A stretch of DNA of 64,000 nucleotides. Source: Gemmatimonadota bacterium (GTDB lineage: Bacteria > Gemmatimonadota > Gemmatimonadetes > Gemmatimonadales > Gemmatimonadaceae). The notes beneath the pieces are model-generated. The model was not told the origin of the DNA and made no database searches. It saw nothing but the letters and a program-made list of their open reading frames with translations. The stretch's first letter is position 1, and each line of letters opens with the position of its first letter. Shown here piece by piece: positions 3,805 through 60,114 of this stretch. The stretch spans positions 62,001 through 126,000 of the forward strand of contig JAJTGR010000017.1 of NCBI GenBank assembly GCA_021299375.1, written 5' to 3'. The translations under genes were made by a program, and so were the position numbers.

Positions 3805-4686
3805 GTTGATTGACGGCAAGGCGATGGCCGCCGCCGTGCGAGACGAGGTTGCGGCCGAGGTGGCCGACCTCGTGGCTCACGGCGTGATCCCGGGGCTCAC
3901 CGTGGTGCTGGTGGGCGACGATGCCGCGAGTGCGACGTACGTGGGGGCAAAGGAGAAAGCCTCGCGCGCCGCGGGCATGGCGGGCGAGACGATCCGGCTG
4001 CCGGGGTCGACGACGCAGGCCGATCTGCTGGCGGTCGTGGAAGGGCTGAATGCGGACCCTGCCGTACACGGCATCCTCGTGCAGATGCCGCTGCCGAAGC
4101 AGATCGATCCCGACACCGTCATCCGGCACATCCGCCCCGACAAGGACGTCGACGGGTTTCACCCCGTGAATGTCGGGAAGCTGCTCATCGGCCATACTGA
4201 TGGGTTCGTGTCGTGCACCCCGGCGGGCGTCATCGAGCTGCTGCTGCGCAGCGGCGTCGAGACGCGCGGGGCTGAGGTCGTGGTGGTGGGGCGCAGCAAC
4301 ATCGTGGGCAAGCCGATGGCCGCCCTCCTGATGCAGGCGCGTGTCGGTGGGGACGCCACCGTCACGGTGTGCCACAGCCGCACCCGGAACCTCGTGGCTC
4401 ACACGCGGCGCGCCGACATCCTCATCGCCGCGATCGGCCAGGCGGAGATGATCACCGGCGACATGATCAAGCCGGGCGCGGTCGTGATCGATGTCGGCAT
4501 GAACACGAAGCCTGACCCGACGACGGCCAAGGGCACACGGCTGTGCGGGGATGTGCACTTCGCGAGTGCCGTGGACGTGGCGTCGAAAATCACCCCGGTA
4601 CCGGGGGCGTGGGGCCGATGACCATCGCCCTCCTGCTCCGCAATACGGTGCGCGCCGCCCGGCGGACCCTCGAGGCGGCTCGCTGA
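3794..4686 (+). CDS. folD: FolD bifunctional methylene-THF dehydrogenase/cyclohydrolase, C-terminus frameshifted
   Basis: FolD interconverts methylene-, methenyl- and 10-formyl-tetrahydrofolate with NADP. The reading frame starts at TTG 3794 ([19 protein letters not shown], matching FolD N-termini) and includes [10 protein letters not shown] of the NADP domain. As sequenced it stops at 4619-4621 after 275 residues, ending [11 protein letters not shown]. The family's invariant motif is PGGVGPMT; one extra G in the G run at 4603-4607 would restore [17 protein letters not shown] and continue to TGA 4684-4686, just before xseA. So the last ~22 codons lie in the wrong frame. This is either a real one-base deletion, a slippage site, or a homopolymer sequencing error; coordinates given cover the restored gene. 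Confidence 0.9.
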
Positions 4687-4688
4687 CG

Positions 4689-5933
4689 ATGGCGTCGCGT
4701 CGCACCAGCGGCTCCGGGCCGACGGTGGCGGCCGACGCAGCGCCCGGGGCGTCACCCGACGCGGCGATCGCCGTGCACACGTTGACGACGGCGGCGAAGG
4801 ACCTCATCGAAGGGGCGTTCCCGCCGCTCTGGGTGCGAGGCGAGGTCACGAACTTCAAGGCCCATCGCAACGGGCACTGGTATTTCTCGCTGCGTGATGC
4901 GGAGGCTCAGGTCAATTGCGTGATCTGGAGCTCGGCGGCGCGTCGCCTTCCTGCGCCTCCCGACGAGGGCATGCAGGTGCTGGCGTTCGGGCAGATGACC
5001 GTCTGGCCGGTGCGCGGCGACCTCCAATTCTCCGTCCGCCAGCTGGAGGCTGAAGGCGATGGCCTGTGGCGCAAGGCGCTCGAGCGGACCCGCCTGCGGC
5101 TGGAGCGGGACGGCTTGCTCGACCCGGCCCGGAAACGCCCGTTGCCCGTCTTTCCCCGCCGCATCGCCGTGATCACCAGTCCGGATGGCGCGGCGCTTCA
5201 CGACATCGTCAGCGTGTCGCGGGCGCGGAGCGCCGACGTGGAGCTGGTGATCGTTCCGGCCAAAGTGCAGGGGGAGGGGGCGCCGGACTCGCTGGTGGCC
5301 GCCATCGACCAGTGTGCCCGATGGGGTGACGCTGACCTGCTGATCATCGGGCGGGGGGGCGGTTCCAGGGAAGACCTGTGGGCCTTCAACGACGAACGCG
5401 TGGCCCGCGCACTCGCTGCCTCACCCATACCGACGATTTCGGCGGTCGGTCACGAGGTGGACATCAGTATGTGCGACCTCGTGGCCGATGTCCGCGCGGC
5501 GACCCCGTCGGCAGCGGCCGAACTGGCGGTCCCGTCACGCCGGGAGATCACGGCCCGCGTCGCTGCCCTTGGGAAGCGTCTCGCGGCCGCCGCCCGACGT
5601 CGCGAAGATCGGGCCGTCGCGGCGCTGGCTCAGGTCAGGAAACGGCTTGGCCTGGCCGCCACCCGGTTGGTGGAGCGGCGCCGAGCCCGGGTGGAGACCG
5701 TCGCGGGACAACTGCATGCGCTCTCGCCGCTTACCACACTGGCGCGGGGGTTTGCGGTGGCGCGAACGCCCGAGGGCGCTACTTTGAGCGGAAGCCGGCA
5801 GTTCGTCGCCGGCGCCCCATTTGCGTTGTGGCTGCACGACGGCATCGTGGACGCCGTCGCGGGCGTACGCCGGCCCCTGCCCGCGGGTTTCGCGGCACCG
5901 GCCGACGCATCGATCGACGAGGAGCGCGCATGA
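4689..5933 (+). CDS. xseA: Exodeoxyribonuclease VII large subunit
   Basis: Large subunit of ExoVII, which degrades single-stranded DNA in both directions. The 414-residue product has the N-terminal OB fold (LWVRGEVTNFKAHRNGHWYF, about residues 45-65), the catalytic core with VITSPDGAALHDI and GRGGGSREDLWAFNDE, then SAVGHEVD and TPSAAAELAVP, followed by a helical C-terminal region. ATG 4689 is chosen because it sits 2 nt after the restored folD stop and the OB fold begins about 25 residues later. The stop overlaps xseB by 4 nt (ATGA), the normal coupled arrangement for two subunits made in a fixed ratio. Confidence 0.95.
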   Translation: MASRRTSGSGPTVAADAAPGASPDAAIAVHTLTTAAKDLIEGAFPPLWVRGEVTNFKAHRNGHWYFSLRDAEAQVNCVIWSSAARRLPAPPDEGMQVLAFGQMTVWPVRGDLQFSVRQLEAEGDGLWRKALERTRLRLERDGLLDPARKRPLPVFPRRIAVITSPDGAALHDIVSVSRARSADVELVIVPAKVQGEGAPDSLVAAIDQCARWGDADLLIIGRGGGSREDLWAFNDERVARALAASPIPTISAVGHEVDISMCDLVADVRAATPSAAAELAVPSRREITARVAALGKRLAAAARRREDRAVAALAQVRKRLGLAATRLVERRRARVETVAGQLHALSPLTTLARGFAVARTPEGATLSGSRQFVAGAPFALWLHDGIVDAVAGVRRPLPAGFAAPADASIDEERA

Positions 5934-6151
5934 CCGACATGAGCTTCGAGCAGTCCCTGACCCGTCTGGAAGAGATCGTGCGCGACCTCGAGCGTAACGA
6001 CCTCGACCTCGAGCAGTCGCTTCGCCTGTTCGAAGAGGGGATCACGCACCTTCGCTCTGCGGGCACGGCCCTCACGGCGGTTGACGCTCGTGTGCAGCAG
6101 CTCGTGGAAGCCGCTGACGGCTCGTTCTCGGTGGTGGAGTTCGGAGCGTAG
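5930..6151 (+). CDS. xseB: Exodeoxyribonuclease VII small subunit
   Basis: A 73-residue small subunit that binds several-to-one to the extended helical part of XseA. MSFEQSLTRLEEIVRDLE and LDLEQSLRLFEEGI are the typical XseB helices. The ATG at 5930 overlaps the xseA stop; ispA starts on the very next base after the TAG at 6149-6151. Length is normal for the family. Confidence 0.95.
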   Translation: MTDMSFEQSLTRLEEIVRDLERNDLDLEQSLRLFEEGITHLRSAGTALTAVDARVQQLVEAADGSFSVVEFGA

Positions 6152-7081
6152 ATGAACCCGGGAGGGATGGCGGCCCCCATGGTCAGGTCCGAGGACTTGG
6201 CGCACACGTTCGCGCGTGAGCGCGTCGCGGTCCAGCGCGCGCTCGACGGGTTCTGCGCTCGCTGGCTCGCCGATATCGCGCCGCTCACGGCCGAAGCCAT
6301 CCGGTACGCGCTGCTCGGCGAGGGCAAGCGGCTGCGCGCGATCCTGCTGCTCGAGGCCTACCGGGCCTGTGGCGGCGCGGGCGACGCGCTCGACCTGGCG
6401 GCTTCGGTGGAGGTCGTGCACGCCTACTCGCTCGTCCACGACGATCTGCCGTGCATGGACGACGATGACGTGCGTCGAGGCCGGCCGACGGTGCACCGCG
6501 TGTACGGGGTGCCCATCGCCACGGCGGCCGGACTGGCCATGGTACCGCTGGCTGCCCGCAGCGCCTGGCATGCGGCCAAAGCCATGGGGCTCTCCGACGT
6601 GGTCGCCGGCGACATCGTGCGCGACCTCATGGACGCGTCCGGTGCCGGTGGCATGATCGGCGGGCAATTGCTCGACCTCGAGGCGGAGGGGGTGCATCTC
6701 ACGCTCGAAGCGCTCGAACGGGTGCACCGGCTCAAGACCGGAGCGCTGATCATGGCGTCGGTGTCGCTGGGAGGGCGCGCCGCTGAAGCACCGGATTCGC
6801 GGCGCCTCGCGCTGTGCCGGTACGGGGCTGCCATCGGCCTTGCCTTCCAGATCGCCGACGATGTGCTGGACATCACCGCCACCACGGATCAGCTCGGCAA
6901 GACGGCCGGGCGCGATCTGGACCTCAACAAGAGCACCTATCCGGCGCTGCTTGGGGTGGAGGGAGCAATCGAACGGGCTGTGGCGTTGATCGAGGATGGC
7001 TGCGCGGCACTGCAGGAGGAGGGGCTGCTGACCCCGACCCTCGAGCAACTGGCGCGCTACATCGTCGAGCGCCGTTCGTGA
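6152..7081 (+). CDS. ispA: Polyprenyl (farnesyl/geranylgeranyl) diphosphate synthase
   Basis: Short-chain trans-isoprenyl diphosphate synthase that condenses IPP with allylic diphosphates; 309 residues. First aspartate-rich motif VHDDLPCMDDDDVRRG begins near residue 94, the second is FQIADDVLDITAT near 235, and a LKTGALI segment lies between. ATG 6152 abuts the xseB stop; internal Met codons a few residues on are alternative starts. Sitting between xseB and dxs is the standard bacterial arrangement, supplying both ends of the isoprenoid pathway. Product length (C15 or C20) cannot be decided from what I can see. Confidence 0.92.
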   Translation: MNPGGMAAPMVRSEDLAHTFARERVAVQRALDGFCARWLADIAPLTAEAIRYALLGEGKRLRAILLLEAYRACGGAGDALDLAASVEVVHAYSLVHDDLPCMDDDDVRRGRPTVHRVYGVPIATAAGLAMVPLAARSAWHAAKAMGLSDVVAGDIVRDLMDASGAGGMIGGQLLDLEAEGVHLTLEALERVHRLKTGALIMASVSLGGRAAEAPDSRRLALCRYGAAIGLAFQIADDVLDITATTDQLGKTAGRDLDLNKSTYPALLGVEGAIERAVALIEDGCAALQEEGLLTPTLEQLARYIVERRS

Positions 7082-7182
7082 GTCCGGTCGCCGCTGCGAG
7101 GTGTCCTGCCGTGAGCCTTCCTTCTCTTCCGTGCCGTTACTGACCGTTGCTGTTGTCGGCCGCAACGCCATCCCGAGTTCCT

Positions 7183-9075
7183 ATGTCCCTTCTCGAAGGC
7201 ATCAATTCGCCCGCTGACGTTCGCCGCCTCTCGCGCGACGAGATGCGTGTTCTGGCCCAGGACATGCGCGAGCGTCTCATCGATGTGTGCTCGCGCACCG
7301 GTGGGCACATCGGCGCCGGCCTTGGTGTGGTGGAACTCACCATTGCCCTGCACGCGGCCTTCGACACACCCACCGACCAGATCGTCTGGGACGTGGGGCA
7401 CCAGGGGTACCCGCACAAGCTGCTCACCGGCCGCAATGGCCGCATGGAGACGTTGCGTCAGGAAGGCGGGCTGTCGGGCTTCCTCAAGCGCACCGAGAGC
7501 GAGTATGACACGTTCGGGGCTGGCCACGCCGCCACGGCCATTTCCGCCGCCCTCGGCATGGCGGCCGGTCGCGACGTCATGGGCGAGTCGTTCAAGGTGG
7601 CCGCTGTCATCGGCGATGGCTCGCTGGGCTCCGGGCTTGCCTACGAGGGGCTCAACAACGCCGGCCATTCCGATCGCGACATCATCGTCGTGCTCAACGA
7701 CAACGAGATGTCGATTGCCCCGAACGTCGGGGCCATGCACAAGTACCTCACGAGTATCCAGCGCAATCCGCTCTACAACCGGCTGCGTTCGCGCATCGGG
7801 GACCTCGTCGATAATGCGCCGGGACCGTTTCAGGGGGCCGGCACCCTTCTCCGCAAGTGGGAAGAGAGCGTCAAGTCGTTCCTCACGCCGGGCGTCCTGT
7901 TCGAGGAGCTCGGCTTCCGGTACTTCGGTCCGATCGATGGTCATGACATCGACGCCCTGATGGACACCTTCTCGGCCGTGCGCGACATGGGTACGCCGCG
8001 CCTCGTGCATGTGATCACCAAGAAGGGCAAGGGCTTCCCCGCCGGTGATCACGGCGAGAAGTGGCACGCGCTGCCGCCCAACCACGACCCGGCGACCGGC
8101 AAGCAGCTGGCGGTGGCATCGGGCAACCCGGCCTTCACGGCGGTGTACGGCAAGGGCCTCGTCGAACTCGGCGCCGAACGCCAGGATCTCGCGGTGATCA
8201 CCGCGGCCATGCCTGGCGGCACCGGCACGGCGGCATTCGCCAAGGCGTACCCCTCGCGTTTCTTCGACGTGGGCATTGCGGAGGGCCACGGCGTCACGTT
8301 CGCGGCCGGTCTGGCCACCCGGCACGTGCGCCCGGTGGTGACGATCTACTCCACGTTCCTCCAGCGCGGCTACGACAACATCATCCACGACGCCGCCATC
8401 CAGAAGCTGCCCGTGGTGTTCGCCATGGATCGGGCAGGCCTCGTGGGTGAGGACGGCGAAACGCATGCTGGCCTCTACGACATCGCGTACATGCTCTCGG
8501 TGCCCAACATGACGGTCACCGCGCCCAAGAATGGTGCCGAGATGCTTGGCCTGCTGCGCGCTGGTGTGGAGCATACGGACGGCCCGTTCTGCTTCCGCTA
8601 TCCACGAGATGCGTCGCCCGACGTCCCGGGCGACATGTCGGAGATCGCGGCTACGCCATACGCCACGTGGGAGGTGGTTCGGCAGGGCCGGGAGGTGGCG
8701 CTTCTCGCGGTCGGCACCATGGTGCAGCAGTCGCTGGCCGCGGCTGATGTCCTGGCCGCCGAAGGGCTCGAGGTGACCGTCGTGAACTGCCGCTACCTCA
8801 AGCCCTACGATGAGGTCACGCTGGCCGCCATCCTTGCTCAGCACACGCACGTCCTCACTGTCGAGGAGGGTACGGTGGTCAACGGGTTCGGTGCCTTCAT
8901 GAGCACCGTCATCCACCGGCAGTCCCCACACGTGCGCGTCGCGGTGCTGGGTGTGCCGGACCGGATCATCTATTCGGCATCGCGCAAGAAGCAGCTGGCC
9001 ATGGCCGGCCTCGACCCGGCCGGCATCGCCGATCGGGTCCGGGCGCTCCACGACTCCGAAGCCCTCGCCGGCTGA
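7183..9075 (+). CDS. dxs: 1-deoxy-D-xylulose-5-phosphate synthase
   Basis: Thiamine-diphosphate enzyme making DXP from pyruvate and glyceraldehyde 3-phosphate, the first step of the MEP isoprenoid pathway. The 630-residue product has WDVGHQGYPHKLLTGR, the ThDP-binding GDGSLGSGLAYEGLNNAG, NDNEMSIAPNVGA, the central MDRAGLVGEDGETHAG and the transketolase-type C-terminal domain. ATG 7183 gives MSLLEGINSPADVRRLSR, a normal DXS start; an in-frame start at 7147 would add 12 atypical residues. About 100 nt separate it from ispA. The stop overlaps nadK (TGATG). dxr, the next pathway enzyme, is at 39.5 kb. Confidence 0.97.
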   Translation: MSLLEGINSPADVRRLSRDEMRVLAQDMRERLIDVCSRTGGHIGAGLGVVELTIALHAAFDTPTDQIVWDVGHQGYPHKLLTGRNGRMETLRQEGGLSGFLKRTESEYDTFGAGHAATAISAALGMAAGRDVMGESFKVAAVIGDGSLGSGLAYEGLNNAGHSDRDIIVVLNDNEMSIAPNVGAMHKYLTSIQRNPLYNRLRSRIGDLVDNAPGPFQGAGTLLRKWEESVKSFLTPGVLFEELGFRYFGPIDGHDIDALMDTFSAVRDMGTPRLVHVITKKGKGFPAGDHGEKWHALPPNHDPATGKQLAVASGNPAFTAVYGKGLVELGAERQDLAVITAAMPGGTGTAAFAKAYPSRFFDVGIAEGHGVTFAAGLATRHVRPVVTIYSTFLQRGYDNIIHDAAIQKLPVVFAMDRAGLVGEDGETHAGLYDIAYMLSVPNMTVTAPKNGAEMLGLLRAGVEHTDGPFCFRYPRDASPDVPGDMSEIAATPYATWEVVRQGREVALLAVGTMVQQSLAAADVLAAEGLEVTVVNCRYLKPYDEVTLAAILAQHTHVLTVEEGTVVNGFGAFMSTVIHRQSPHVRVAVLGVPDRIIYSASRKKQLAMAGLDPAGIADRVRALHDSEALAG

Positions 9076-48280: not shown

Positions 48281-49396
48281 ATGCGAATCGGTGTACCGAA
48301 AGAGATCAAGACCAACGAAAACCGCGTCGCGCTCGTCCCTGCCGGGGCTGAAGCCCTCACGGCGGCGGGCCATCAGGTGTTCATCGAGACCGGCGCCGGC
48401 ATCGGCAGCGGTTTCGAGGATGACGCCTACCGCGCCGTGGGCGCCGAGATCGTTCCCGATGCCGCCACGGCATGGGGCAAGGCCGAGCTGCTGCTCAAGG
48501 TCAAGGAGCCGATCGCGGCGGAATGGCAGTACCTGCGTCCCGACCTGACGCTCTTCACGTACTTCCACTTCGCCGCCGACGAGGCGCTCACGAAGGCGCA
48601 TCTGGCGAGCGGCGCCACCTGCATTGCCTACGAGACGGTGGAGCTGCCGAATCGCGACCTGCCCCTGCTCATTCCGATGAGCGAGGTGGCGGGGCGGATG
48701 GCCGTGCAGGAGGGGGCCAAGTACCTCGAGAAACTGTACGGAGGCCGCGGTGTGCTGCTCGGCGGCGTACCCGGGGTGGCACCGGCCAAGGTGGTCATTC
48801 TGGGCGGTGGCATCGTGGGCGTGAACGCCGCGAAAATGGCTGCGGGGCTTGGTGCGAAGGTCGTGGTACTCGACCTCTCGCTCGAGCGCCTGCGCTACCT
48901 CTCCGACGTGATGCCGGCGAACGTGCAGCTGGTGCATTCCAACCGGCACAACATCCTCGAACAGATCAGCACCTGTGATCTGGTGATCGGCGGTGTGCTG
49001 ATTCCGGGAGCCAAGGCGCCCAAGCTCGTGCGACGTGAGGATCTCGCGCGCATGCGTCCCGGTGCGGTCATCGTGGACGTGGCGGTCGACCAGGGCGGCT
49101 GCGTGGAGACCATCAAGCCGACCACGCACGAGAACCCGACCTACACGGTGGACGGGATCATTCATTACGGCGTGGCGAACATGCCGGGGGCGGTGCCGCG
49201 CACGTCGACACTGGCGCTCACCAACGCCACGTTACCGTACACCCTGCAGTTGGCCAACAAGGGCTGGAAGCAGGCGCTGAAGGACAATGGCGCGCTCCTG
49301 AAGGGGCTGAACATGTCGGCGGGGCAGGTGACCTACCAAGGCGTGGCCGATGCCTTCGGCATGCCGATGGCCGAGGCGGTGAGATTCCTCGACTGA
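48281..49396 (+). CDS. ald: Alanine dehydrogenase
   Basis: NAD-dependent enzyme interconverting L-alanine and pyruvate plus ammonium; 371 residues. MRIGVPKEIKTNENRVAL, KVKEPIAAEWQYL, TYFHFAAD, the Rossmann motif VVILGGGIVGVNAAKMA and DVAVDQGGCVET are diagnostic. ATG 48281 gives the exact family N-terminus. It lies 37 nt after the M16 gene; a strong hairpin follows. Confidence 0.97.
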   Translation: MRIGVPKEIKTNENRVALVPAGAEALTAAGHQVFIETGAGIGSGFEDDAYRAVGAEIVPDAATAWGKAELLLKVKEPIAAEWQYLRPDLTLFTYFHFAADEALTKAHLASGATCIAYETVELPNRDLPLLIPMSEVAGRMAVQEGAKYLEKLYGGRGVLLGGVPGVAPAKVVILGGGIVGVNAAKMAAGLGAKVVVLDLSLERLRYLSDVMPANVQLVHSNRHNILEQISTCDLVIGGVLIPGAKAPKLVRREDLARMRPGAVIVDVAVDQGGCVETIKPTTHENPTYTVDGIIHYGVANMPGAVPRTSTLALTNATLPYTLQLANKGWKQALKDNGALLKGLNMSAGQVTYQGVADAFGMPMAEAVRFLD

Positions 49397-49548: not shown

Positions 49549-49947
49549 TCAGCCGAGGTACTGCTCGAGCTGCTGCCGCTCGGCAACGGAGAGCGTGCTG
49601 CCGAAGATCAACGCTTCACCGAACACGCCCGGGAGCGACGGCCCTTCCTGTCCATGCCCCGTGTCGGTTCGGCTCTGCACCACCCAGCGCCCCCCCACCA
49701 TCGTGATGCCGGTTAACGGGCTGCCCACGGTGGTGAGCCGATCGAGGAGGTCGTGGCCATCGCCGCCGATGCACGAGCCGCTCGTGTGTGCGCCCGTCGC
49801 GCGGATGACCACGAGCGCACTGCGGGCGCCCGCAACGCCATAGGCCGTCGTGTTCCCGAGGAGGACGTCACCGGTGCCGCCGAAGACGACGGTGGGGCGG
49901 CCGTTGAGGGGGAGGGCCTCGCGGGTGGGCTTCGCGGCTGTGGCGTT
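49549..49947 (-). pseudogene. C-terminal remainder of the adhesin, beyond an in-frame TAG
   Basis: The reading frame of the adhesin continues unbroken for 132 codons after the TAG at 49950-49948, to a TGA at 49551-49549. The translation completes the third LamG-like module: LPLNGRPTVVFGG, then GEALIFGSTLSVAERQQLEQ, the same ending as the two upstream modules (GEVLIFSRALSTSERASLE and SEVLVFTGVLSDAARRTVE). So the stop falls inside a module rather than at the natural end. It may be a nonsense mutation, read-through, or a sequencing error; alone the fragment has no signal peptide and cannot be a secreted protein. Confidence 0.85.
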
Positions 49948-52900
49948 CTACTCGAGGTTGCGGCCACTGCCGCCGCGATCGCGCCAGACGACCTCGGCGT
50001 TCCCCGACTGGACTGAGAAGGTGCGCGCGTCCTGGGCCTCGAGGTGCAGTCCCGGGCTGGCCGGGAGCGTCCCCGTGGCGGTAAAGACGACGCTCTTCCC
50101 CTTCCCGGCGGTTGGGGAGAGCCAGGCGGTAAGCTGATTGGTGCCGAGGTCGAGCGTCCACGCGCTGCTGCCCGTGATGGGCACGCTGGCGTAGCCGCTG
50201 GCGTCCGTGGTGGTGGTGACGGTCGTGGCGGTGCTGCCGAAGCGGGCGCCGCCGCCGGTCACCTGCCAGGTCACGGTGGCGCTGGGGATTCCGGCTCCAG
50301 TGGCGTCGGTGACCCGGACGCGGGGGGCAGTTGCCGGGCTCGTCCCCACCGTCGCTGTCTGGCCATTGCCGGCGTCCTGGGTGAGCAGGCCCAGCGACCA
50401 CTTCGCCATGAGTCCGAGTTCCACCGTGCGGCGAGCGGCATCACTCAGCACGCCGGTGAACACGAGCACCTCGCTGATGCGGCCGGTGAGACTGCCGTCG
50501 CCATTGGTGGAGCCATCCCGGCGGTTGCCGAGCGTCTTGACCCAGCCGAGGGCGGCGCCGCTCGCTACGGAACCGGTGAGGCCGCCGTTGGTGAACAGTT
50601 GCCACTGCGCGGAGGAGCGAACCGTCACCAGGACGGGACCGGGTGCGGTGGGGAAGAGCGGGGACGCGATCCCCTGAAAGCGAAATCCGCGCCCCACGTT
50701 GCTGAAGTTCTGGGTCCCGCCGTTCCAGACATCGGACGCTGCCTGAACGTTTTCTCCCCAGTCAAGCACGGTGTACCCGCGATACGAGGTGCCGTCATCG
50801 AGCGGGTCGAACACCAGGAACGTCGTGGTTGTCAACGTCGGGCTGAAGGGGTTCAGCGGGTTGGTCGCCGTCTGCAGGAACCCATTGGTCACGTCGGCGT
50901 TCCAGTGCAACGTTGGGTGGCCGTTGAGCGCGTCGGTCAGGTACGTGGGCTGACGGCTCACCACGGACTGCACCGCCGGTACCTGGCCACCGGAGCGATC
51001 GCCCCACGACGCCACGAGACTGTTGTTGGCGGGTTCGTCGGCGCCGCTGCCGTTGGCGTTGATGTCGGTGGCATCGAGCCACCACGCGACCCCGCACACC
51101 GCGTAGGCACAGGCCCGGCCGGTCGCGGTGAAGACGACACTCTGTCCTTGGCCGGGGGTGCCGCTGAGCCAGGCAGTGAGTGTGTTCACGCCGGGCATGC
51201 CGAGGGTCCAGGAGCCCACGGTGGCCAGGCCGTTGGCGTTGGTGGTGGTGGTTTCGCCGGTGATGGTGCCCCCGCCGCCGGTTACCTGCCAAGTCACGGT
51301 GGCGCCGGCAAGCGGTGCCCCGGAGGCATCGGTGAGGCGCACACGGGGCGCGGTGCCGACCGGACTCCCGGCCAACGCGATCTGCCCCTCGCCCAGATCG
51401 CGGGTCAAGGTGCCGAGCCCCCACTTCACCATGAGGGCGGCTTCGAGGCTGGCCCGCTCGCTCGTGGAGAGCGCGCGGCTGAAGATCAGGACCTCCCCGA
51501 TCGTGCCGAGGAACAGACTGTTCTCCAGGGCGTTGCCAACGGCAAGGCGGGTGCGCCCCAGCGTGTGGCGACTCACGCTGGCCGATTGGCCAGTCCCGCG
51601 GTTGAGGCGCAGGACCTGACTGCTCCCATCGAAGTGTACCGCTCCGAGCGCGGGCGCCGCGGGGAGCGTCCGGTCGATCGTCGGGAACGGCCCGCTGCCG
51701 CTGCCCGGAGGACTCCGGTGCACGGCCCGAGTGCTGGTGAGGGTCTGCGAGGCGGCGACCCGTTCATCCCACCACACCGCAACGCTGCTGGTACCCACCG
51801 AGTCCAGCCGCAAGACACCGTAATCGCGGGCCGCATTCGGCTGAGGCTGGTACACCACGAGCATGCTGTAGCCATCGCCATTGAGACGAGCGGTGCTCAC
51901 GTCGTCGACGTACTGCCCGGCGAGGTTATCGAAGAGGAGGGCCGCGCGACCATTGAGCAGGTTGGTCCCCCGCACGGCCCCCAGCGCCGCGCCGCCACCG
52001 GCGCCGTTCCCGGCGACGGTCACGTCGTTCGCGGCGCCGGATCGGTCGCGGACGACCCGTACGCGGGCGTTCGGGGCGCTTGGCGTCGTGCCGGCATCGT
52101 CGCTGAAGAGGGTGCTGGCCTCGGTGGCGTCGAGCCAGAACGTGGCGCCGCACACGCCGTAGGCGGCCGGCACGGTGCTGGTGACCGTCGCCGTCGTGCT
52201 CAGGGCCTGCCCGTTCACCGTGGCGCGCACGGTGAGCGGGGTCCCGCCGCACGTGGTGGGCATGAGCGTGATCACGCGGCGGCCATCGGCGTCGGTGGTG
52301 CCCTCGTTGCGCACGGTGGCGGTGCCGCCGCTGACCTGAACGTTGACGTTGGCTCCGCTCATCGGGTTGCCGTGGGCATCGCGCGCCGTGACCTCGACGA
52401 GCGTCGTGTCGCCCCCCGTGCTCAGCGCGGGATCGGTGAGGCGGAGCGTACTGGCGGAGGCGTCTACGGCGCCGGCCGTCACGGTGAGTGACGGCGCGCC
52501 GGCGAGCAGCGTGTAGTCGGCAATGGCGCGCAGGGTGGCGGCTTGCGCGGTGGCCGTGGTGATGGTCGCGGTGGCGACGCCGACGGCATCGGTGGCGAGG
52601 GGCGGCTGCGTGATGCCAAGGGCGCGCCCGATCCCGCCAAGCTGCACGGGCACACCGGCGAGGGGCAGCCCGGCGGCAGAGCGGGCGGTGATCGTGGCGG
52701 ACACGGAGCCCGCGGCGCCGACGGTGGCCAGCCCCAGCGTCACCGTACTTTGGCTCGCGCTCACGGCGGTTACCGGGGCGCCGGCGCTGCTCACCGCGAG
52801 CGTCATCGACGCGGTGGTGGTGGCGCTGGAGTCGTCCTGGGCGGTGAGCTGCACACTGTAGCTGCCGGCGCTGCGATAGACGGTGCGCACCACCGGCCCG

Positions 52901-53214
52901 CTCACCTGCGTCACGCCGTTGCCGAGGCTCCAGGTGTAGGCCACGACGCGCCCGTCGCGGTCGAAGGCGTACGAGGCGTCGAAGGTGACGGTATCGCCGG
53001 GCTGGGGCCAGCGCGGGCTGATGCTGAACACCGCCTGCGGCGCGACGTTTGTCGATGCCCGTGGCAGGGACAGCTCGGGGGCACTCGGTGTCTCGTCGCA
53101 GGCGCCCAGGATGGTCGCGATGACCCCCGTGTGGAGCAACCAGCGACGGGGCGCCAACAGGCGGGGGGCGGACAGGCGGGGGGCGGACAGGCGGCGCCGT
53201 CGCATGAAGGACAC
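49948..53214 (-). CDS. PKD/Ig-like/LamG-like lipoprotein adhesin, interrupted at the C-terminus
   Basis: A 1088-residue surface protein. N-terminus: Arg-rich segment, hydrophobic stretch and lipobox LGAC (Cys39), so a lipoprotein. Then a PKD domain (about 58-143, FDRDGRVVAYTWSLGNGV), Big1/Ig-like domains (about 145-350) and repeating units of LamG-like module (WLDATEAS..., WLDATDIN..., third cut by the TAG) separated by Ig-like modules sharing APLAGATVTWQVTGGGG/IPSATVTWQVTGGG and LTAWLSGTPGQGQSVVFTATG. Start is GTG 53214 or ATG 53205, 3 nt after the upstream pilin-like gene, so it is the last gene of the chaperone-usher operon. Role as fibre tip or surface adhesin is inferred from the domains and position. 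Confidence 0.85.
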   Translation of the reverse strand: MSFMRRRRLSAPRLSAPRLLAPRRWLLHTGVIATILGACDETPSAPELSLPRASTNVAPQAVFSISPRWPQPGDTVTFDASYAFDRDGRVVAYTWSLGNGVTQVSGPVVRTVYRSAGSYSVQLTAQDDSSATTTASMTLAVSSAGAPVTAVSASQSTVTLGLATVGAAGSVSATITARSAAGLPLAGVPVQLGGIGRALGITQPPLATDAVGVATATITTATAQAATLRAIADYTLLAGAPSLTVTAGAVDASASTLRLTDPALSTGGDTTLVEVTARDAHGNPMSGANVNVQVSGGTATVRNEGTTDADGRRVITLMPTTCGGTPLTVRATVNGQALSTTATVTSTVPAAYGVCGATFWLDATEASTLFSDDAGTTPSAPNARVRVVRDRSGAANDVTVAGNGAGGGAALGAVRGTNLLNGRAALLFDNLAGQYVDDVSTARLNGDGYSMLVVYQPQPNAARDYGVLRLDSVGTSSVAVWWDERVAASQTLTSTRAVHRSPPGSGSGPFPTIDRTLPAAPALGAVHFDGSSQVLRLNRGTGQSASVSRHTLGRTRLAVGNALENSLFLGTIGEVLIFSRALSTSERASLEAALMVKWGLGTLTRDLGEGQIALAGSPVGTAPRVRLTDASGAPLAGATVTWQVTGGGGTITGETTTTNANGLATVGSWTLGMPGVNTLTAWLSGTPGQGQSVVFTATGRACAYAVCGVAWWLDATDINANGSGADEPANNSLVASWGDRSGGQVPAVQSVVSRQPTYLTDALNGHPTLHWNADVTNGFLQTATNPLNPFSPTLTTTTFLVFDPLDDGTSYRGYTVLDWGENVQAASDVWNGGTQNFSNVGRGFRFQGIASPLFPTAPGPVLVTVRSSAQWQLFTNGGLTGSVASGAALGWVKTLGNRRDGSTNGDGSLTGRISEVLVFTGVLSDAARRTVELGLMAKWSLGLLTQDAGNGQTATVGTSPATAPRVRVTDATGAGIPSATVTWQVTGGGARFGSTATTVTTTTDASGYASVPITGSSAWTLDLGTNQLTAWLSPTAGKGKSVVFTATGTLPASPGLHLEAQDARTFSVQSGNAEVVWRDRGGSGRNLE
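53157..53191 (-). repeat. 15-bp tandem repeat in the adhesin signal region
   Basis: Two full and one partial copy of a 15-bp unit (plus strand ACAGGCGGGGGGCGG) encode the repeated RLSAP residues just before the hydrophobic core of the signal peptide. In-frame copy-number changes would alter the n-region only. Confidence 0.75.
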
Positions 53215-53217
53215 GGG

Positions 53218-54216
53218 TCAGGCCCCCGTGTAGCGGATCGTCACCGCGATCGTGCCGGTGTACATCCCGCCCGGCTGGAGGGCGGCCGGCATGACCGTAC
53301 CCCCCAGGCACACCGTATTGCGCCCTGAGCTGCCCACGGGTGACGCGAGGGACAGCGTGACGCTCTGGCCACTGGTGGTATTGACGGCCGCGCCGGTACA
53401 CTCGGCGCCGGTGCGATGCACCCACGAGCCCACAGGCACGGTGGGGCCATCGCCGCGGCTGAGTTCAGACGGCAAGGCGTCGAATGTCACGTCCACCGAC
53501 GCGTTCAGCGGCCCGTCGATCATGAGCCGCAAGGCAGTCGCCGCGGCGGGTTCGAGCACAGCCGGAACGCCACCGTAGACACGTGGAAAGGTGAGCGGCG
53601 TGGCCAGCACGTTGAGCGGCGCCAGAATCGTGGCCGACACGAGCGCCTGAGTCGTGAGGCTGTTGGCGCCAGTGGTCAGATCTGAGGCGACGAAGGTCAC
53701 CGCGGCGCTGAAGCTGCCGCCAGCCGTGGCGATCGGTGGCTGGAGTGTCCCGCCGAGGCGAATCGTCGCGATACCATCCGCACCGAGTGTGACGGAGAAC
53801 GGGGTCCCGCTAGCCGGCGTGACGACGACCGGTGCCCCCCCGGTCCCCGTGGCCGTGGTGGCGGTCCAGCTCGATACACTGGCGAGTCCCGTGGACGCCA
53901 CGAGCTGGTTGGGGAACGTCAGCGTCGCCTGCAACACCGCGCCCGCGCGGCCGGTGATTGTGAACACGGCCGCCCCGGCGTCCGCTGGCAGCACCGTACG
54001 CAACTGGCGTGGCGCCACCGTGCCGAACGCCAGATCTGCCGACTTGGTGATACGCAGCGATTGTGCATGAAGCAGGTGCAGCGGCAGGAGGGCGATCAGC
54101 GGAAGGACCCCGAGCGCCCTGCGGCCGCCGTGCGCGACGCGCGCCAGCAGGCACCCCCGCAGGCGATTCCGTGCGAGGGGCTGCGCGATGATGGCGCGGA
54201 TGGGGCGGCACCTCAC
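53218..54216 (-). CDS. Two-domain DUF4402/pilin-like secreted protein
   Basis: A 332-residue exported protein. Signal peptide: Arg-rich n-region, hydrophobic LGVLPLIALLPLHLLHAQ, cleavage expected before SLRITKSADLAFG. Two tandem immunoglobulin-like pilin domains follow: the first with LAFGTVAPRQ (about 60-190), the second with TPLTFPRVYGG and ending MYTGTIAVTIRYTGA, the same ending as the divergent one-domain subunit (SYTGQIGVSVNYTGA). The N-terminal strand plus terminal G-Y-T-G beta strand fit the DUF4402 family, relatives of chaperone-usher pilins. GTG 54216 overlaps the stop of the chaperone-usher gene (GTGA). A two-domain subunit suggests an adaptor or tip adhesin. Confidence 0.8.
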   Translation of the reverse strand: MRCRPIRAIIAQPLARNRLRGCLLARVAHGGRRALGVLPLIALLPLHLLHAQSLRITKSADLAFGTVAPRQLRTVLPADAGAAVFTITGRAGAVLQATLTFPNQLVASTGLASVSSWTATTATGTGGAPVVVTPASGTPFSVTLGADGIATIRLGGTLQPPIATAGGSFSAAVTFVASDLTTGANSLTTQALVSATILAPLNVLATPLTFPRVYGGVPAVLEPAAATALRLMIDGPLNASVDVTFDALPSELSRGDGPTVPVGSWVHRTGAECTGAAVNTTSGQSVTLSLASPVGSSGRNTVCLGGTVMPAALQPGGMYTGTIAVTIRYTGA

Positions 54217-57200
54217 GGGACGGGTACGCACCGGACATCGGCGCCTCCGACCTCGGGCACACGGACGCGGACGCCGCTCGACAGCGTGAGCGTCACGGTA
54301 CACGAGAGCTGGCGCGGGTGATCGGTACTGGCTTCGCGACCCCGCTCACGCAGGTCGATCCGATACGTGCCCGCGGGCGCCGGCCCGAGGGGAATGATGC
54401 CGTCGTCGAACACCTCGAGGGGCTGCGCTCGTGCGCCCTTGTGGTCGAGCGACAGGAGCGTGCCCGTCCAGGCGCCCGGCGGGGCCTCGGCCACGCCGCT
54501 CGCGGCGGGCACATAGGGAATGTTGACGCGTGTCTCGCCAAAGGGCACAAGCAAGGACCACTGCACCGGCACACTGGTGACGAGGGAGCGTCCGTCGGGG
54601 CTGTAGGTGAAGGGCAGCTCCGGACTCACCGGGATCGCGTCGAGCACCGGCAACCCGGTAGCCACGAACTGGCCAGCGGCATCGGTCCGGAACGTGGTCC
54701 GCCCAACGCGAATCACCAGATTGGCAAGCCGCGGCTCGGCGGGGCCGGGTTGGCCGTTGCCATCGAGATCTTCGAAGGCCACGCCGGCAATCGCGGACCG
54801 GAGCGCCACGAAGTCATTGCTGAGCCGCACGCCGCTCGTGCCGGGACGGACCGAGGCGGACCCGAGGAGTGTCGTCGTAGACTGGGCGACCCCGCGTACA
54901 CTGCCGAGGACCGATTGCACCAGCGTGGCAAAGGGGCCCTGCTGCTGGAACTGCACACGGACGCTTGCCCCCATGAAGGGGCGCCAGTCGGCGGCGGCCT
55001 GCACCTGCAACCCGGGGCCCATCGCCAGCGCGGCCTGTGCGCTGACAAGCTGGAGCCGCTGCTGCGTGTCCATCGCGCCGCTCAGCGTGGTGAGCGTACG
55101 GCGCAGCAGAGTGGGGCCCCGACGCCATTGCGGCACGGTGAGGCTCAGGGTGGCGGTGCCCCCGCGCTGGGGCACCGGATCGAAGGGGCCCCGCTGCTGA
55201 ATCCCGTCCCATATCGCCTGGAGCAGCATGCCATTCGTGCGGACCCCGACGGTGCCGGAAAGCCCGGCCGCGACGGAGTGCGAATAAAGAAGCTCACGCC
55301 ACTGCGAGCTGATCCAGAAGCGCCCGAGGTCGCGGGCGAACGGTCGGATCGTGACCTGCGCCTGTCGCTCCTGAACGGAGAACCGCGCCCGGGCGCCCAA
55401 CCAGAAGGGGGCGCGGGCGGAATCGATCACTTCCTGGCCAACCTCGAGACGCAGCCGGAGCGAGGGCTGGAATACGGCGCGCGCGCGCCACCAGCCCTCC
55501 CGGGCCGCCTCCCCGCGAACCTGAAGGGCGTTCACGGGCGAAGCCGCGACGGTGGCGTACGGTTCGCTACGGACGATGCCGTCGGGGAAGCGCAACTGGT
55601 AGCTGCCGGCGCGCACGGTGAGGCGGGTGCTGAGGCCGATGCGCAGGTCCGCGTTACCCATGAGCCCGCACGCCCCGACCCCCAGCCGGCACTCGCTCCC
55701 CAGCATGTCGAGCGACTGCGCGGTCAGGCCGTACTCCACCTGGCGCGCGGCGATGAGATCGGTTTCGAGACCGAAGAGGGCAGAACTGCGCCGCACCCCG
55801 TCGGCGGTGTAGATGGCGACTTCAATGGCGTTTTCCCCGAACATCACTGGTACCGGCAGCGACCAGTGCCCGGTGCTGTCGGCGGTCGCGATGCCGATGA
55901 CCTGGCCATTTCGCGAGATCTCGACTTCGGCGCCCGGCGGCGCCGACCCGCTGCGCACCACGGTGCCGATGTTCGCAGAGCGCAGGAACGGCGCATTCGT
56001 GAGCGAGACGCCATTGCCCGAGATGGGCAATGGTCCCGTGCTCGAGCCTGCCCCAAGGCGCAGCTGCCGCAGCCAGGGATTCTTCGGGTTGCCGCCGAGC
56101 CAGCTCGTCATGGCATCGAGCCGACGGTGGCCGGTGAGTCGTGAGGAGATGATCTGGGTGGAGAGGCCACCGCCGAGGACGGTCGTACCGAGCGTCGACA
56201 CGGCCATGTGATCGCCGGTGGTGTTGTCGACGGCCGCATTGTAGGTCAGGGTCAGTCCCGACGGCAGCCAGCCTCCGCGCTGCAGACGGCTGGCGGGGGA
56301 CCACGTGAGCAGCTCGGCAAGCCCGTCGCTCTCCACCTGTCGGCGCGGCCGACTCGCCGTGAGGCGCGGAAGCAACTCACGAGGCGTATCGACCACGAGC
56401 GTCGAGGTGGGCTCGTCGACGCGCGCCGAAATCCCCATCAGCGCGGGGAGGTGGACCGGATCGACGTACCAATCGCCCCCTTCCCACTGGAGCGCCTGTG
56501 CACCGAGCTCCACCTGTTCGGTGACGCGGCTGCCAACCCGTCGGGTGGCCGTGCCGGTGCGGGGGTCGACGGTCACCACGAGGAGCTGCTGTCCTCGCGA
56601 GGTGATGTGCAGGGCGCGCGGGCCCAGGCTGTCGACGGCGATGCCCAGGAGGCGAGCCACTCCGCGCAGCGGGACGCGCGAATGTCCGAGGGAAGGTCCC
56701 TCGAGCGTCAGGATGGTTCCGACCTCCACGCCGGCGACCGCGACCGCCAGGACGCCCACATCCGGATCGCGTCGCAGGGTGTCGGTCCCTGTGCGTAACG
56801 GATCGACGAGCCCGATCGATCGCGTGGCGGTGATGGTGTCTGCGGCCGTGGGTGTGCGGGGGCCCCGTGAGACCGTGCCGGTCTGGTCGCGGGGCAGAAC
56901 GCCGAGCGTGTCGGCCGGGATCTCCACTCCCTCCGGCTCCTCGAGGTCGTCGGGCTTCTCGGGCGCCTCAGGTGCCTCAAGTGACGCATCGTGCGGGGGC
57001 TGCCACGAGGTGAGGGCGCCCCACGGGGCGGCGGGGGCGGCGTCGAGTCGCTCCCCAGGAGCTGTCGGAGGATTGCCGGATCCGTCTGGTGGCGAGGTAA
57101 GCGGAGCCGTGACGGTGACCGGCGTGAAGGGCAGGACAAAACCCTCGGGAAGATCCGGCCGGCGTGACGTGACGGTCACCCGCACCTGTTGTACGCGCGC

Positions 57201-58040
57201 GAGGACAGCGGCGGGGACCGGCAGGCTCACGCGGGGGGTCAATGCGTGGTAGACGGCCAGCTGGCGGGTTTCCGAGGCGAGCACAGTGCCGTTCGCGTCG
57301 AGCGCATCGAGTTGGAGAGCGCCCACGGCCGCCCCGTTCCCCGTGCGATCGAAGCGGAGGGAAAGCTCGACCCCACTGGGACTGCGCACCGCCGACGTGA
57401 TCGCCGCCGTGAGCCCCGTTCGCACCGGCCCCTTGCGGAAGTACACGGGGATGACGGTCTGCACCTGCAGGCTGATCTCGCCAGCGACCCCAGGGTTAGT
57501 AGTAGTGCCGGTCGTGGGCCGCTCGTCGCGTCGGCTCGTGATGGACATGCGCGCCCAGTATTCACCATCGGCCAGCGCCGCCCGGGACAGCGCCACGATG
57601 CGCACGATCTGCGTAGCGCCGGGCGCGAGGCGGAAGCGGACGGGGGAGAAACGAATCAGGGGAACGGCCGAGTTGGCGGGGGCGACGGAGTCGTCGAGTA
57701 TCCGCACGGTCGTCGCGCCGGTGCTGCTGTCGGTCACGAGGTCCCCGTATCGCAGCCCGATCCGCACGTCGAGCGGGACCTCATTCTGATTGAGAACCGT
57801 TATGGCGCCACTGGGGGTACGATCGGTGACGTGGATGACCTGGGGGGCGACGCTTGTGGCCTGCGCCAGCAGGGGCGCTGGCGCGAGGAGCAGGGTGGCC
57901 GCCACCCACGTCGCCAGTCCGCGACGGGCGCGCGTCAGGAGTCTCCGCGCCCCGCGAAGGGGCGTGCGGGCCACGCGGTGGGAGGAGGCCAGTCCCGAAT
58001 TGCACATAGTCGTCCGATTGACGCACGACCAGCGCGACAC
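54213..58040 (-). CDS. Chaperone-usher fusion protein
   Basis: A 1275-residue exported protein joining two components normally encoded separately. Signal peptide ends near residue 60 (LLLAPAPLLAQ). Residues about 63-310 resemble a PapD-type pilus chaperone: IHVTDRTPSGAITVLNQNEV, the strand RFSPVRFRLAPGATQIVRIV and DGEYWARMSI, then a second beta domain. A Pro/Glu/Asp-rich linker (about 311-425) leads to an N-terminal usher/periplasmic region (425-560) and a beta-barrel (about 575-1070) interrupted by a usher-middle-like sandwich (GNGVSLTNAPFLRSANIG, PPGAEVEISRNGQVIG, FGENAIEVAIYTADG). A DLDGNGQPGPAEPRL module and a basic C-terminal domain follow. Alternative start ATG 58007. First gene of a three-gene operon with pilin-like and adhesin genes. 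Confidence 0.8.
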   Translation of the reverse strand: MSRWSCVNRTTMCNSGLASSHRVARTPLRGARRLLTRARRGLATWVAATLLLAPAPLLAQATSVAPQVIHVTDRTPSGAITVLNQNEVPLDVRIGLRYGDLVTDSSTGATTVRILDDSVAPANSAVPLIRFSPVRFRLAPGATQIVRIVALSRAALADGEYWARMSITSRRDERPTTGTTTNPGVAGEISLQVQTVIPVYFRKGPVRTGLTAAITSAVRSPSGVELSLRFDRTGNGAAVGALQLDALDANGTVLASETRQLAVYHALTPRVSLPVPAAVLARVQQVRVTVTSRRPDLPEGFVLPFTPVTVTAPLTSPPDGSGNPPTAPGERLDAAPAAPWGALTSWQPPHDASLEAPEAPEKPDDLEEPEGVEIPADTLGVLPRDQTGTVSRGPRTPTAADTITATRSIGLVDPLRTGTDTLRRDPDVGVLAVAVAGVEVGTILTLEGPSLGHSRVPLRGVARLLGIAVDSLGPRALHITSRGQQLLVVTVDPRTGTATRRVGSRVTEQVELGAQALQWEGGDWYVDPVHLPALMGISARVDEPTSTLVVDTPRELLPRLTASRPRRQVESDGLAELLTWSPASRLQRGGWLPSGLTLTYNAAVDNTTGDHMAVSTLGTTVLGGGLSTQIISSRLTGHRRLDAMTSWLGGNPKNPWLRQLRLGAGSSTGPLPISGNGVSLTNAPFLRSANIGTVVRSGSAPPGAEVEISRNGQVIGIATADSTGHWSLPVPVMFGENAIEVAIYTADGVRRSSALFGLETDLIAARQVEYGLTAQSLDMLGSECRLGVGACGLMGNADLRIGLSTRLTVRAGSYQLRFPDGIVRSEPYATVAASPVNALQVRGEAAREGWWRARAVFQPSLRLRLEVGQEVIDSARAPFWLGARARFSVQERQAQVTIRPFARDLGRFWISSQWRELLYSHSVAAGLSGTVGVRTNGMLLQAIWDGIQQRGPFDPVPQRGGTATLSLTVPQWRRGPTLLRRTLTTLSGAMDTQQRLQLVSAQAALAMGPGLQVQAAADWRPFMGASVRVQFQQQGPFATLVQSVLGSVRGVAQSTTTLLGSASVRPGTSGVRLSNDFVALRSAIAGVAFEDLDGNGQPGPAEPRLANLVIRVGRTTFRTDAAGQFVATGLPVLDAIPVSPELPFTYSPDGRSLVTSVPVQWSLLVPFGETRVNIPYVPAASGVAEAPPGAWTGTLLSLDHKGARAQPLEVFDDGIIPLGPAPAGTYRIDLRERGREASTDHPRQLSCTVTLTLSSGVRVRVPEVGGADVRCVPVP

Positions 58041-58305
58041 GTAACGGCCCTGCCGGTGACGAAATGTTCCGGCCGTGCGCCCGGTGCGCGAACTGCGCCA
58101 GCGCGCGCTCAGGCCCGCTTCAGTTTGGGTGGGAGGCGACGATACTGACGGTCGAACGGGGGAGCGGTATCCGCGACGCTGTCACGCGGCTGGCATCATC
58201 CCTCACGGCAAACAAACGCTGGCCACACGCGTGATGACGGACCTGTCACGTCGTGCGTCTTCAGTGTACGAACGACGCTGTTCGGCCCCTCAATCTGGAC
58301 TTCCC
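58041..58305. promoter_or_regulatory. Divergent control region of the chaperone-usher locus
   Basis: The 265 nt between the minus-strand chaperone-usher gene and the plus-strand subunit gene must hold both promoters. On the plus strand a weak CTGTCA (58250-58255), 18 nt, TACGAA pair is visible; no strong -35/-10 pair stands out on either strand, which would fit a regulated or activator-dependent locus. Confidence 0.35.
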
Positions 58306-58857
58306 ATGCAACCGATCACACTCCGACATGCCGCGCTGGCGGCGCTCCTCCTGGGCGCGGCTCCGCTCGCAGCACAGGCCGGCCCCGTCCAGACCGTCAA
58401 TGTCCCCGTGAGTGCCCGGGTATTCACGCCCCTCACGGTGACCAGCACCGACAACCTGCGGTTCGGTACCCTATACGCCCCTTCGACCACGCCGAAGGCG
58501 GTCGACTTCATCGACAACGCCGCCAGCGGTGGCCGGGCCCGGGTGACCATCGCCGGCGAGGGGGGCGCCGCACTGAACGTGGTGCTGACCGTCCCGAGCG
58601 AACTGACGAGCGGCGGGAACAGCCTGTCCGTCGGCAGCTTCGCCCTCCGTTGGAATACCAACGATGCGGACGGGGCGGGCACCGACGTCAACCTGACCGC
58701 TGGCAGTAACACCATCTCGCTCACGATGCCGGGATCGAACGCGACAACCCAGAACATGTACCTGCGCTTCCGCGCGACCGCCTCGCCGACCGCGAACCAG
58801 GCGGCGGGGAGCTACACCGGTCAGATCGGTGTGAGCGTGAATTACACGGGCGCGTAA
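58306..58857 (+). CDS. One-domain DUF4402/pilin-like subunit
   Basis: A 183-residue exported protein. Signal peptide MQPITLRHAALAALLLGAAP ends at AAQA; the mature N-terminus GPVQTVNVPVSARVFTPLTV is an alternating hydrophobic strand of the sort used in donor-strand exchange. The body contains LRFGTLYAPST and RARVTIAGEGGAALNVVLTV and it ends SYTGQIGVSVNYTGA, matching the two-domain protein on the other strand. ATG 58306 is the only start that gives an intact signal peptide. Probably the major subunit of the fibre assembled by the fusion usher. A strong hairpin follows at 58898. Confidence 0.85.
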   Translation: MQPITLRHAALAALLLGAAPLAAQAGPVQTVNVPVSARVFTPLTVTSTDNLRFGTLYAPSTTPKAVDFIDNAASGGRARVTIAGEGGAALNVVLTVPSELTSGGNSLSVGSFALRWNTNDADGAGTDVNLTAGSNTISLTMPGSNATTQNMYLRFRATASPTANQAAGSYTGQIGVSVNYTGA

Positions 58858-58929: not shown

Positions 58930-58977
58930 GCGCCGTTGGGGGAGCGCGGGAAGCGTAGGTCACGGATTCACAACAGC

Positions 58978-59006
58978 TTGTCTGCTCTCGTCGAGACCGA
59001 TACCTT
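58978..59006 (+). promoter_or_regulatory. Promoter of the mreBCD-mrdA-rodA operon
   Basis: TTGTCT (58978-58983), 17-nt spacer, TACCTT (59001-59006). The predicted start, near 59013, leaves a ~64-nt leader to mreB. Confidence 0.6.
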
Positions 59007-59076
59007 ACGCCCTCGTCGCACGACCGGCCCTCATCAGGCGAGCGCCCCGCCGCTCTCGCCGAATCGATCCCCTTGG

Positions 59077-60114
59077 ATGTTCTGGCCCTTCAGCAAGTCG
59101 AATTCGTTCTTCCCGGCCAACGCCATCGCCGTTGACCTCGGCACGGCCAATACGCTGATCTACGTGAAGGGGGAGGGGATCGTGCTGAACGAACCCTCGG
59201 TCGTCGCGCTCGACCGCGAGACCAAGAAGATCAAGGGCGTCGGCCTCGAGGCCAAGCGCATGCTCGGGCGCACCCCCGACGGCATCATGGCCGTGCGTCC
59301 CATGAAGGACGGCGTGATCGCCGACTTCGACGTGACCGAGAAGATGCTCCGGTACTTCCTCACGCTGGTGATCGACAAGCACGTCTTCAAAGTGAAGCCG
59401 CGCGTGATCGTGTGTGTCCCGAGTGGCATCACGGAAGTGGAGAAGCGCGCCGTGCGCGACTCGGCGTTGGGCGCCGGCGCGAAGGAGGTGTTCATGGTGA
59501 CCGAGCCGATGGCGGCCGCGATCGGGGTGGGGCTCCCGGTGGAAAGCCCCACGGGCAACATGGTGATCGACATCGGCGGTGGCACCACGGAGATTGCGGT
59601 CATCGCGCTCTCGGGCATCGTGAGCGACACGAGCATCCGCACCGGCGGCGACGAACTGGACATCAGCATCGTGCAGTTCATGCGCAAGAACTACAATCTG
59701 CTGATCGGCGAGCCCACTGCCGAGCAGATCAAGATCCAGATCGGCTCCGCCTATCCGGTGGGTGAGGAGCGCGAGATGGAAGTGAAGGGTCGCGATCTCG
59801 TCTCGGGCATTCCGAAAACGGTGCGCGTCCACTCGAGCGAGATTCGCGAAGCGGTCCAGGAGCCGATCCAACAGATCGTCGATGCGGTCCGTCGCGCGCT
59901 CGAGATTACGCCGCCCGAGCTGGCCTCCGACATCGTGGATCGGGGGATCGTCATGACCGGGGGCGGGGCGCTCATTCGGGGGCTCGACGTGCTCCTCAGT
60001 CAGGAGACCGGCCTGCCCATTCACGTCGACGAGGATCCGCTGACATGCGTGGTGCGCGGCACCGGCAAGATTCTCGACGACGAAGAGAAGTACTGGTCGG
60101 TTCTCACCACCTGA
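59077..60114 (+). CDS. mreB: Rod-shape determining protein MreB
   Basis: Bacterial actin homologue that orients the elongation machinery; 345 residues. [17 protein letters not shown] (phosphate 1), [16 protein letters not shown]-like segment (written [15 protein letters not shown]), [17 protein letters not shown] (phosphate 2) and [13 protein letters not shown] (adenosine loop) are intact. The N-terminal [13 protein letters not shown] contains an amphipathic/hydrophobic anchor. ATG 59077 follows the predicted promoter; an upstream open frame to 58936 would start before the promoter. Heads the operon. Confidence 0.97.

Follow-up and report, generated by a model that had tools for sequence, protein, structure and literature searches.

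The 64,000-nucleotide stretch of Gemmatimonadota DNA considered here (contig JAJTGR010000017.1 of assembly GCA_021299375.1, positions 62,001 to 126,000; the window) carries a compact four-gene locus in which a predicted chaperone and a predicted usher share one polypeptide, accompanied by two pilin-like proteins with the domain DUF4402 (PF14352) and by a large lipoprotein. An earlier note, made from the letters of the DNA, had described three closely spaced minus-strand genes and a divergent gene for a one-domain subunit; these open reading frames (ORFs) were confirmed, as were the start/stop overlap (GTGA at 54213-54216, where the stop of the fusion gene overlaps the start of the two-domain DUF4402 gene) and the 3-nt gap between the latter and the lipoprotein gene (TGA-CCC-GTG). 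The two longest ORFs of the locus display coding-type GC content at third codon positions (GC3), and the signal peptides of which that note spoke were recovered as signal-peptide-like N-termini on the locus proteins, with a lipobox (ILGAC) in the lipoprotein. Because of the GTGA overlap with the fusion stop, the two-domain DUF4402 protein probably starts at GTG 54216 (332 aa) and not at 54303 (361 aa), and ATG 58306 is the likeliest start of the one-domain gene. Scans for promoters and terminators gave no signal above chance. The features are listed below, the two flanking genes last.

54213-58040, minus strand: ORF of the chaperone-usher fusion protein, 1275 aa, with a single N-terminal signal peptide
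57111-57863, minus strand: PapD-like chaperone part (residues ~60-310), in which Pro133 and Arg164 are conserved
56757-57110, minus strand: Pro/acidic linker (residues ~311-428) without a second signal peptide, from sequence and hydrophobicity
54216-56756, minus strand: usher part (residues ~429-1275), comprising an N-terminal domain, a predicted ~24-strand barrel with plug and C-terminal beta domains
53218-54216, minus strand: two-domain DUF4402 protein lacking an N-terminal donor segment, candidate for the tip (PF14352, E 1.9e-8)
49948-53214, minus strand: PKD-Big_1-LamG-like lipoprotein, 1088 aa, from Pfam domains and lipobox, ending at TAG 49948-49950
58306-58857, plus strand: divergent one-domain DUF4402 protein with an N-terminal donor-like segment, proposed shaft subunit (PF14352, E 3.1e-8)
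48281-49396, plus strand: left flank, alanine dehydrogenase-like gene (ald)
58936-60114, plus strand: right flank, mreB

The fusion protein matches an usher profile (A1, 1e-212) and a chaperone profile (A3, 4e-91) within the same ORF, the window protein being itself a member of both, and searches of single window proteins against Pfam, NCBIfam, PHROG and PDB sequences returned no usher or chaperone above cut-off. PF00345 (PapD_N) matches 9 of 23 members of the chaperone family (best 1.4e-6); one fused homologue (L122, genome G306) passes that cut-off only by the neighbour-summed score of the genome search, reaching 18.7 bits against the 23-bit cut-off in a whole-protein scan. The chaperone profile aligns with FimC-type, EcpB/E and sigma chaperones at hhalign E ~5e-5 to 1e-4. 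Pro133 and Arg164, invariant in 23/23 sequences, align with EcpB Pro60 and Arg89, which correspond to the superfamily proline (CsuC Pro59/EcpB Pro60) and to the non-classical carboxylate-anchoring Arg (PMC4654587), and the classical G1 Lys is replaced by Pro, Ala or Ser at the FimC Lys position (five family members shown). By these sequence features, the N-terminal part of the fusion is identified as a PapD-like chaperone, and a search of the window genome for a further chaperone found none with E < 0.05. When the chaperone alignment was searched as a profile against the PDB, the sole match was a weak and unrelated one to a plant protein (E 0.11).

The usher half (residues 405-1275, 29-row alignment) was folded alone, as a joint chaperone and usher alignment had placed usher N-termini onto the chaperone. 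The resulting AlphaFold2 model (mean predicted local distance difference test score, pLDDT, 72.8) displays the plug and barrel strand order of ushers in a plugged barrel of ~24 strands, and in a Foldseek search of the PDB the top 17 matches were all FimD or PapC (E 9.2e-27 to 2.0e-9), the best non-usher match being BamA (8e-6). A profile of 31 ushers of the family aligned with FimD at hhalign E 4.9e-7. PF00577 (Usher) matched one of these 31 members (0.0014) and neither the window protein nor anything else in the window genome; usher N- and C-terminal Pfam domains were likewise not detected, and the C-terminus holds carboxypeptidase-regulatory/SdrD_B-like domains. On its predicted fold, the C-terminal half is an usher despite its lack of a match to the Pfam Usher model. 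The claim of a chaperone and an usher in one 1275-aa polypeptide is thus borne out by PapD_N matches in relatives and by a FimD/PapC-like usher fold; the outcome that the earlier note had said would refute it, a protein devoid of chaperone or usher similarity in profile searches, did not arise, given the PapD_N, hhalign and Foldseek matches.

Across the phylum, homologues of the fusion protein occur in 60/298 Gemmatimonadota genomes; in most cases its N-terminal third and its remainder are matched by two distinct genes, and the usual unfused order is subunit-subunit-chaperone-(subunit)-usher. PF00577 exceeded its cut-off in 1/200 genomes of the phylum (G069, which holds a spore coat U, SCPU, system) and SCPU itself (PF05229) was found in 2/200, although the 298- and 200-genome samples are different draws searched with different kinds of query and their rates are not strictly head-to-head. 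DUF4402 matches were present in 37/149 relatives, all 37 of which also had a chaperone or usher match, and chaperone and DUF4402 genes directly adjoin the usher in 36/40 named-genome loci; the earlier note had also counted a lack of co-occurrence in relatives against its reading, and the genes do co-occur. The same subunit-chaperone-usher arrangement was observed in a Krumholzibacteriia genome (L108). Among side observations, a true archaic SCPU, PF00577-positive chaperone-usher locus (L198, G069, 4667-8324) is apparently rare in the phylum; a divergent usher-like ORF (L071, G185, E 2e-16) showed neither a chaperone nor a DUF4402 gene within the 12 kb of sequence covered; and one genome's chaperone gene appears as two overlapping frames (L047 7361-8049/L073 8169-8857), through a frameshift or an error. 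A Thermus brockianus plasmid protein, matched weakly by the usher profile (E 8e-18, one protein) in its repeat-like C-terminal region, was rejected as a candidate, no chaperone or DUF4402 match adjoining it, and a DUF4402 gene on a Piscirickettsia plasmid is solitary, with no usher nearby.

Several lines of evidence point to DUF4402 proteins as the fibre subunits, as had been proposed. Both pilin-like proteins exceed the Pfam cut-off for DUF4402 and are the only two matches in the window genome, and the C-terminal pattern that they were said to share is present in their ends (GSYTGQIGVSVNYTGA and GMYTGTIAVTIRYTGA). Among proteins encoded beside the family's chaperones and ushers, 56/66 match DUF4402, and 51/66 subunits carry G-x11-[YF] within 4 residues of the C-terminus, as do most of the E. 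coli K-12 pilins inspected. In a control set, 43/430 called genes had the motif; this set includes the subunits themselves, so that the true background must be below 10%. The distance from signal cleavage (by rule-assigned sites) to a conserved FG is bimodal, with values of 24-29 residues where an alternating hydrophobic segment is present and of ~9-17 where it is absent. Operons typically contain one donor-less subunit, its gene placed directly ahead of the chaperone gene or between the chaperone and usher genes. All five cassettes encode a homologue of the two-domain DUF4402 protein, each time donor-less; the stretch between its two domains, TTQALVSATILAPLNV, is similar by eye to the donor segment TVNVPVSARVFTPLTV of the one-domain protein. 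An AlphaFold2 model of the latter (pLDDT 85.3) gave, among its first 50 weak Foldseek matches, the PapG pilin domain, FimF/FimG, CfaB, PapE, PapA and CS20. The locus can be regarded with high confidence as a chaperone-usher system with DUF4402 subunits. A literature search limited to open-access papers found no mention of DUF4402, PF14352 or 'chaperone-usher fusion'.

The four-gene cassette (fusion, two-domain DUF4402 protein, PKD/Big/LamG lipoprotein and divergent one-domain DUF4402 protein) recurs in three further Gemmatimonas genomes (genus name inferred), so that four genomes, that of the window together with G289, G306 and G307, encode chaperone and usher in a single ORF, and a fifth genome (G135) keeps the gene order with the two as separate ORFs; the assemblies are mostly metagenome bins, and several cassettes run off their contigs. 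In the usher tree, obtained by a quick search and not bootstrapped, the fused ushers group together in a single clade (Shimodaira-Hasegawa-like approximate likelihood ratio test, SH-aLRT, 96) with G135 as sister (SH-aLRT 100), and the fusion therefore probably arose once. The ald-mreB junction is empty, the two genes being adjacent, in 12 other Gemmatimonas genomes, which makes it likely that the cassette was gained or lost at a single site; the G306 cassette likewise adjoins mreB, and scans of the cassette edges revealed no repeats pointing to a mobile element. Genome G135 also contains, elsewhere, a second, unfused DUF4402-chaperone-usher operon (L123).

The lipoprotein gene, conserved in 5/5 cassettes, encodes PKD_4, Big_1 and weak Laminin_G_3 domains. 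It had been drawn as extending to 49549, an extent that must be corrected, as an in-frame TAG (49948-49950) closes the ORF at 1088 aa. The 132 codons from there to the next in-frame stop (TGA, 49549-49551) retain a GC3 of 0.88 and similarity to an intact homologue (L034), and on these grounds the TAG is either a nonsense mutation that arose recently or a sequencing error carried into the assembly. At that TGA, the homologue has W (GWKWG), so that two nonsense changes or sequencing errors are conceivable. Of the proposal that the lipoprotein is a tip or surface adhesin, the first part is not supported: the protein has no DUF4402 or other pilin domain and is a poor tip candidate for that reason, its lipobox implies membrane anchoring, its gene is interrupted by the TAG, and unfused operons across the phylum have no conserved adhesin-like gene after the usher. 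The second part is tenable, and the likely role of the lipoprotein is that of a surface adhesin anchored in the membrane, co-expressed with the fibre genes but outside the fibre. Its LamG-like residues 707-949 (within 49951-53214, minus strand) match phrog_10356, a phage virion structural protein, at 7.7e-17.

In the textbook account of fibre assembly, the chaperone is free and recycles. In the pathway proposed for the window, a single signal peptide would export the fusion, and the usher half would form a plugged barrel in the outer membrane. The chaperone, held beneath the barrel by its tether, would capture DUF4402 subunits, complete their fold with its G1 strand and hand them in cis to the usher; each subunit's N-terminal segment would then displace the chaperone strand from the previous subunit by donor-strand exchange. 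Lacking a free N-terminal donor segment, the two-domain DUF4402 protein could only start the fibre and appears a better tip candidate than the lipoprotein; the stretch between its domains resembles a donor segment that serves in cis. The divergent one-domain protein would build the shaft, and this division into tip and shaft is reasonably likely. That the fusion operates as one tethered protein is judged quite probable, and nearly the same confidence attaches to the explanation as a whole, namely a fibre system of the chaperone-usher kind whose clade the Pfam and NCBIfam usher models do not recognise, here in a derived form with the chaperone attached through a flexible linker to the usher's periplasmic N-terminus.

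Certain findings weigh against this explanation. The window chaperone scores under the Pfam cut-off (PF00345, E 0.02), the usher model has low-confidence stretches at its N-terminus and at 149-182 and 539-570, the fold matches of the subunit are individually weak (best chaperone-usher pilin E 2.7e-3, TM-score ~0.3-0.4), donor-segment lengths derive from rule-assigned rather than predictor-called cleavage sites, the window genome has an interrupted adhesin gene, and one tethered chaperone per usher may be slow. A rival possibility is that the fusion is a precursor, cut in the linker after export into an ordinary free chaperone and usher, with which the long (~118 residues), disordered-looking linker and the two separate proteins of the sister lineage G135 would agree. 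The unfused G135 usher, however, has its own strongly hydrophobic N-terminus, whereas the fused linkers have none ahead of the usher part: the hydrophobicity maximum of the stretch searched in the window protein, at residues 430-444, is the first strand of the usher part, and neither an usher signal peptide nor a lipobox is present in the linker. Moreover, the linkers of the four fused proteins differ in sequence and reveal no shared cleavage motif by eye, and 1:1 synthesis would supply very little free chaperone relative to subunits; cleavage is accordingly considered unlikely, if the least unlikely of the rival explanations. Decay of the cluster into a non-functional state in the window strain, which the in-frame TAG in the adhesin gene might indicate, is improbable, given that the remaining three genes of the locus have open, coding-like frames there and that the four related cassettes are open where contigs cover them.

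Export without fibre formation, in which the usher would secrete DUF4402 proteins or the LamG lipoprotein as non-polymerising surface proteins, would fit the single shaft-type subunit gene and the large, co-directional multi-domain lipoprotein gene. Subunit pairs with and without a donor segment nevertheless recur across the phylum, and the lipoprotein is missing from unfused operons, from which it follows that the usher did not evolve for it; this explanation seems a shade less likely than cleavage. An ordinary archaic (sigma) system that profiles miss through divergence would account for a chaperone that keeps the non-classical carboxylate-anchor Arg without the classical Lys, and sigma systems are those known beyond Proteobacteria (PMC4654587, PMC9452303). 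Against it, the window genome has no SCPU (PF05229) pilin match, and the phylum's true sigma usher (G069) matches PF00577 and aligns with gamma ushers at hhalign 1.7e-11, while the DUF4402-linked usher family aligns with this sigma usher at only 0.0016-0.085 (0.0016 for the 31-usher profile); a divergent sigma system is considered as doubtful as decay. A fibre system with a tethered chaperone is the preferred explanation, and its value lies partly in what it offers to the study of assembly: a natural fusion would show whether release and diffusion of the chaperone are needed at all, and it constitutes a ready-made construct for trapping hand-over intermediates. A fibre-subunit function is also proposed for DUF4402, and the findings suggest that surveys based on PF00577 miss most Gemmatimonadota usher systems and some from alpha- and betaproteobacteria.

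Compared with the type 1 and P pilus systems (FimC-FimD and PapD-PapC; gamma and pi), the locus shares the plugged-barrel usher fold, a PapD-like two-domain chaperone, the pilin C-terminal G-x11-Y motif, probably Ig-like subunits and a two-domain candidate tip; it differs in an usher that falls below the Pfam model, shows no detected usher N- or C-terminal Pfam domain and ends in carboxypeptidase-regulatory/SdrD_B-like domains, in the absence of the classical chaperone Lys, in its DUF4402 subunits and in the fusion itself. In the tests made, neither a PF00577 match nor a Lys four residues before the G1-strand Arg, the marks of classical systems (beta, gamma, kappa and pi), was found, in keeping with the earlier note's placement of the locus outside the classic families. 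With archaic sigma systems (Csu) it has in common the non-classical carboxylate-anchor Arg (CsuC/EcpB Arg89), which is not decisive because alpha and sigma both possess it, together with the superfamily Pro, a wide phylum range and a two-domain (here candidate) tip; SCPU subunits and PF00577 ushers are sigma features, and neither was found in the window genome. With alpha (Ecp) systems, it shares chaperone signature residues that align with EcpB and the lack of the classical Lys. No alpha-usher Pfam family appeared among the usher-family matches, and similarity to EcpC was not detectable (hhalign 0.62), a weak test in that EcpC is a single sequence that itself reaches only 0.0064 against gamma ushers. 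Close counterparts outside the phylum are the DUF4402-chaperone-usher operons on plasmids of Polaromonas JS666 and Sphingopyxis indica, which are of the same family (usher-profile E 4.5e-90 and 1.5e-80, with matching chaperones) and differ in being unfused; their ushers (L133 4162-7743 and L134 4248-7812) are annotated only as 'carboxypeptidase-like regulatory domain protein'. By its sequences, the system matches none of the described clades that these tests covered, the one on alpha ushers being weak. The odds lean somewhat toward a seventh major chaperone-usher clade, characterized by DUF4402 pilins and carboxypeptidase-regulatory-type usher C-termini and mostly unseen by PF00577, of which one Gemmatimonas lineage would have a permanently tethered chaperone that hands over subunits in cis, with no free chaperone.

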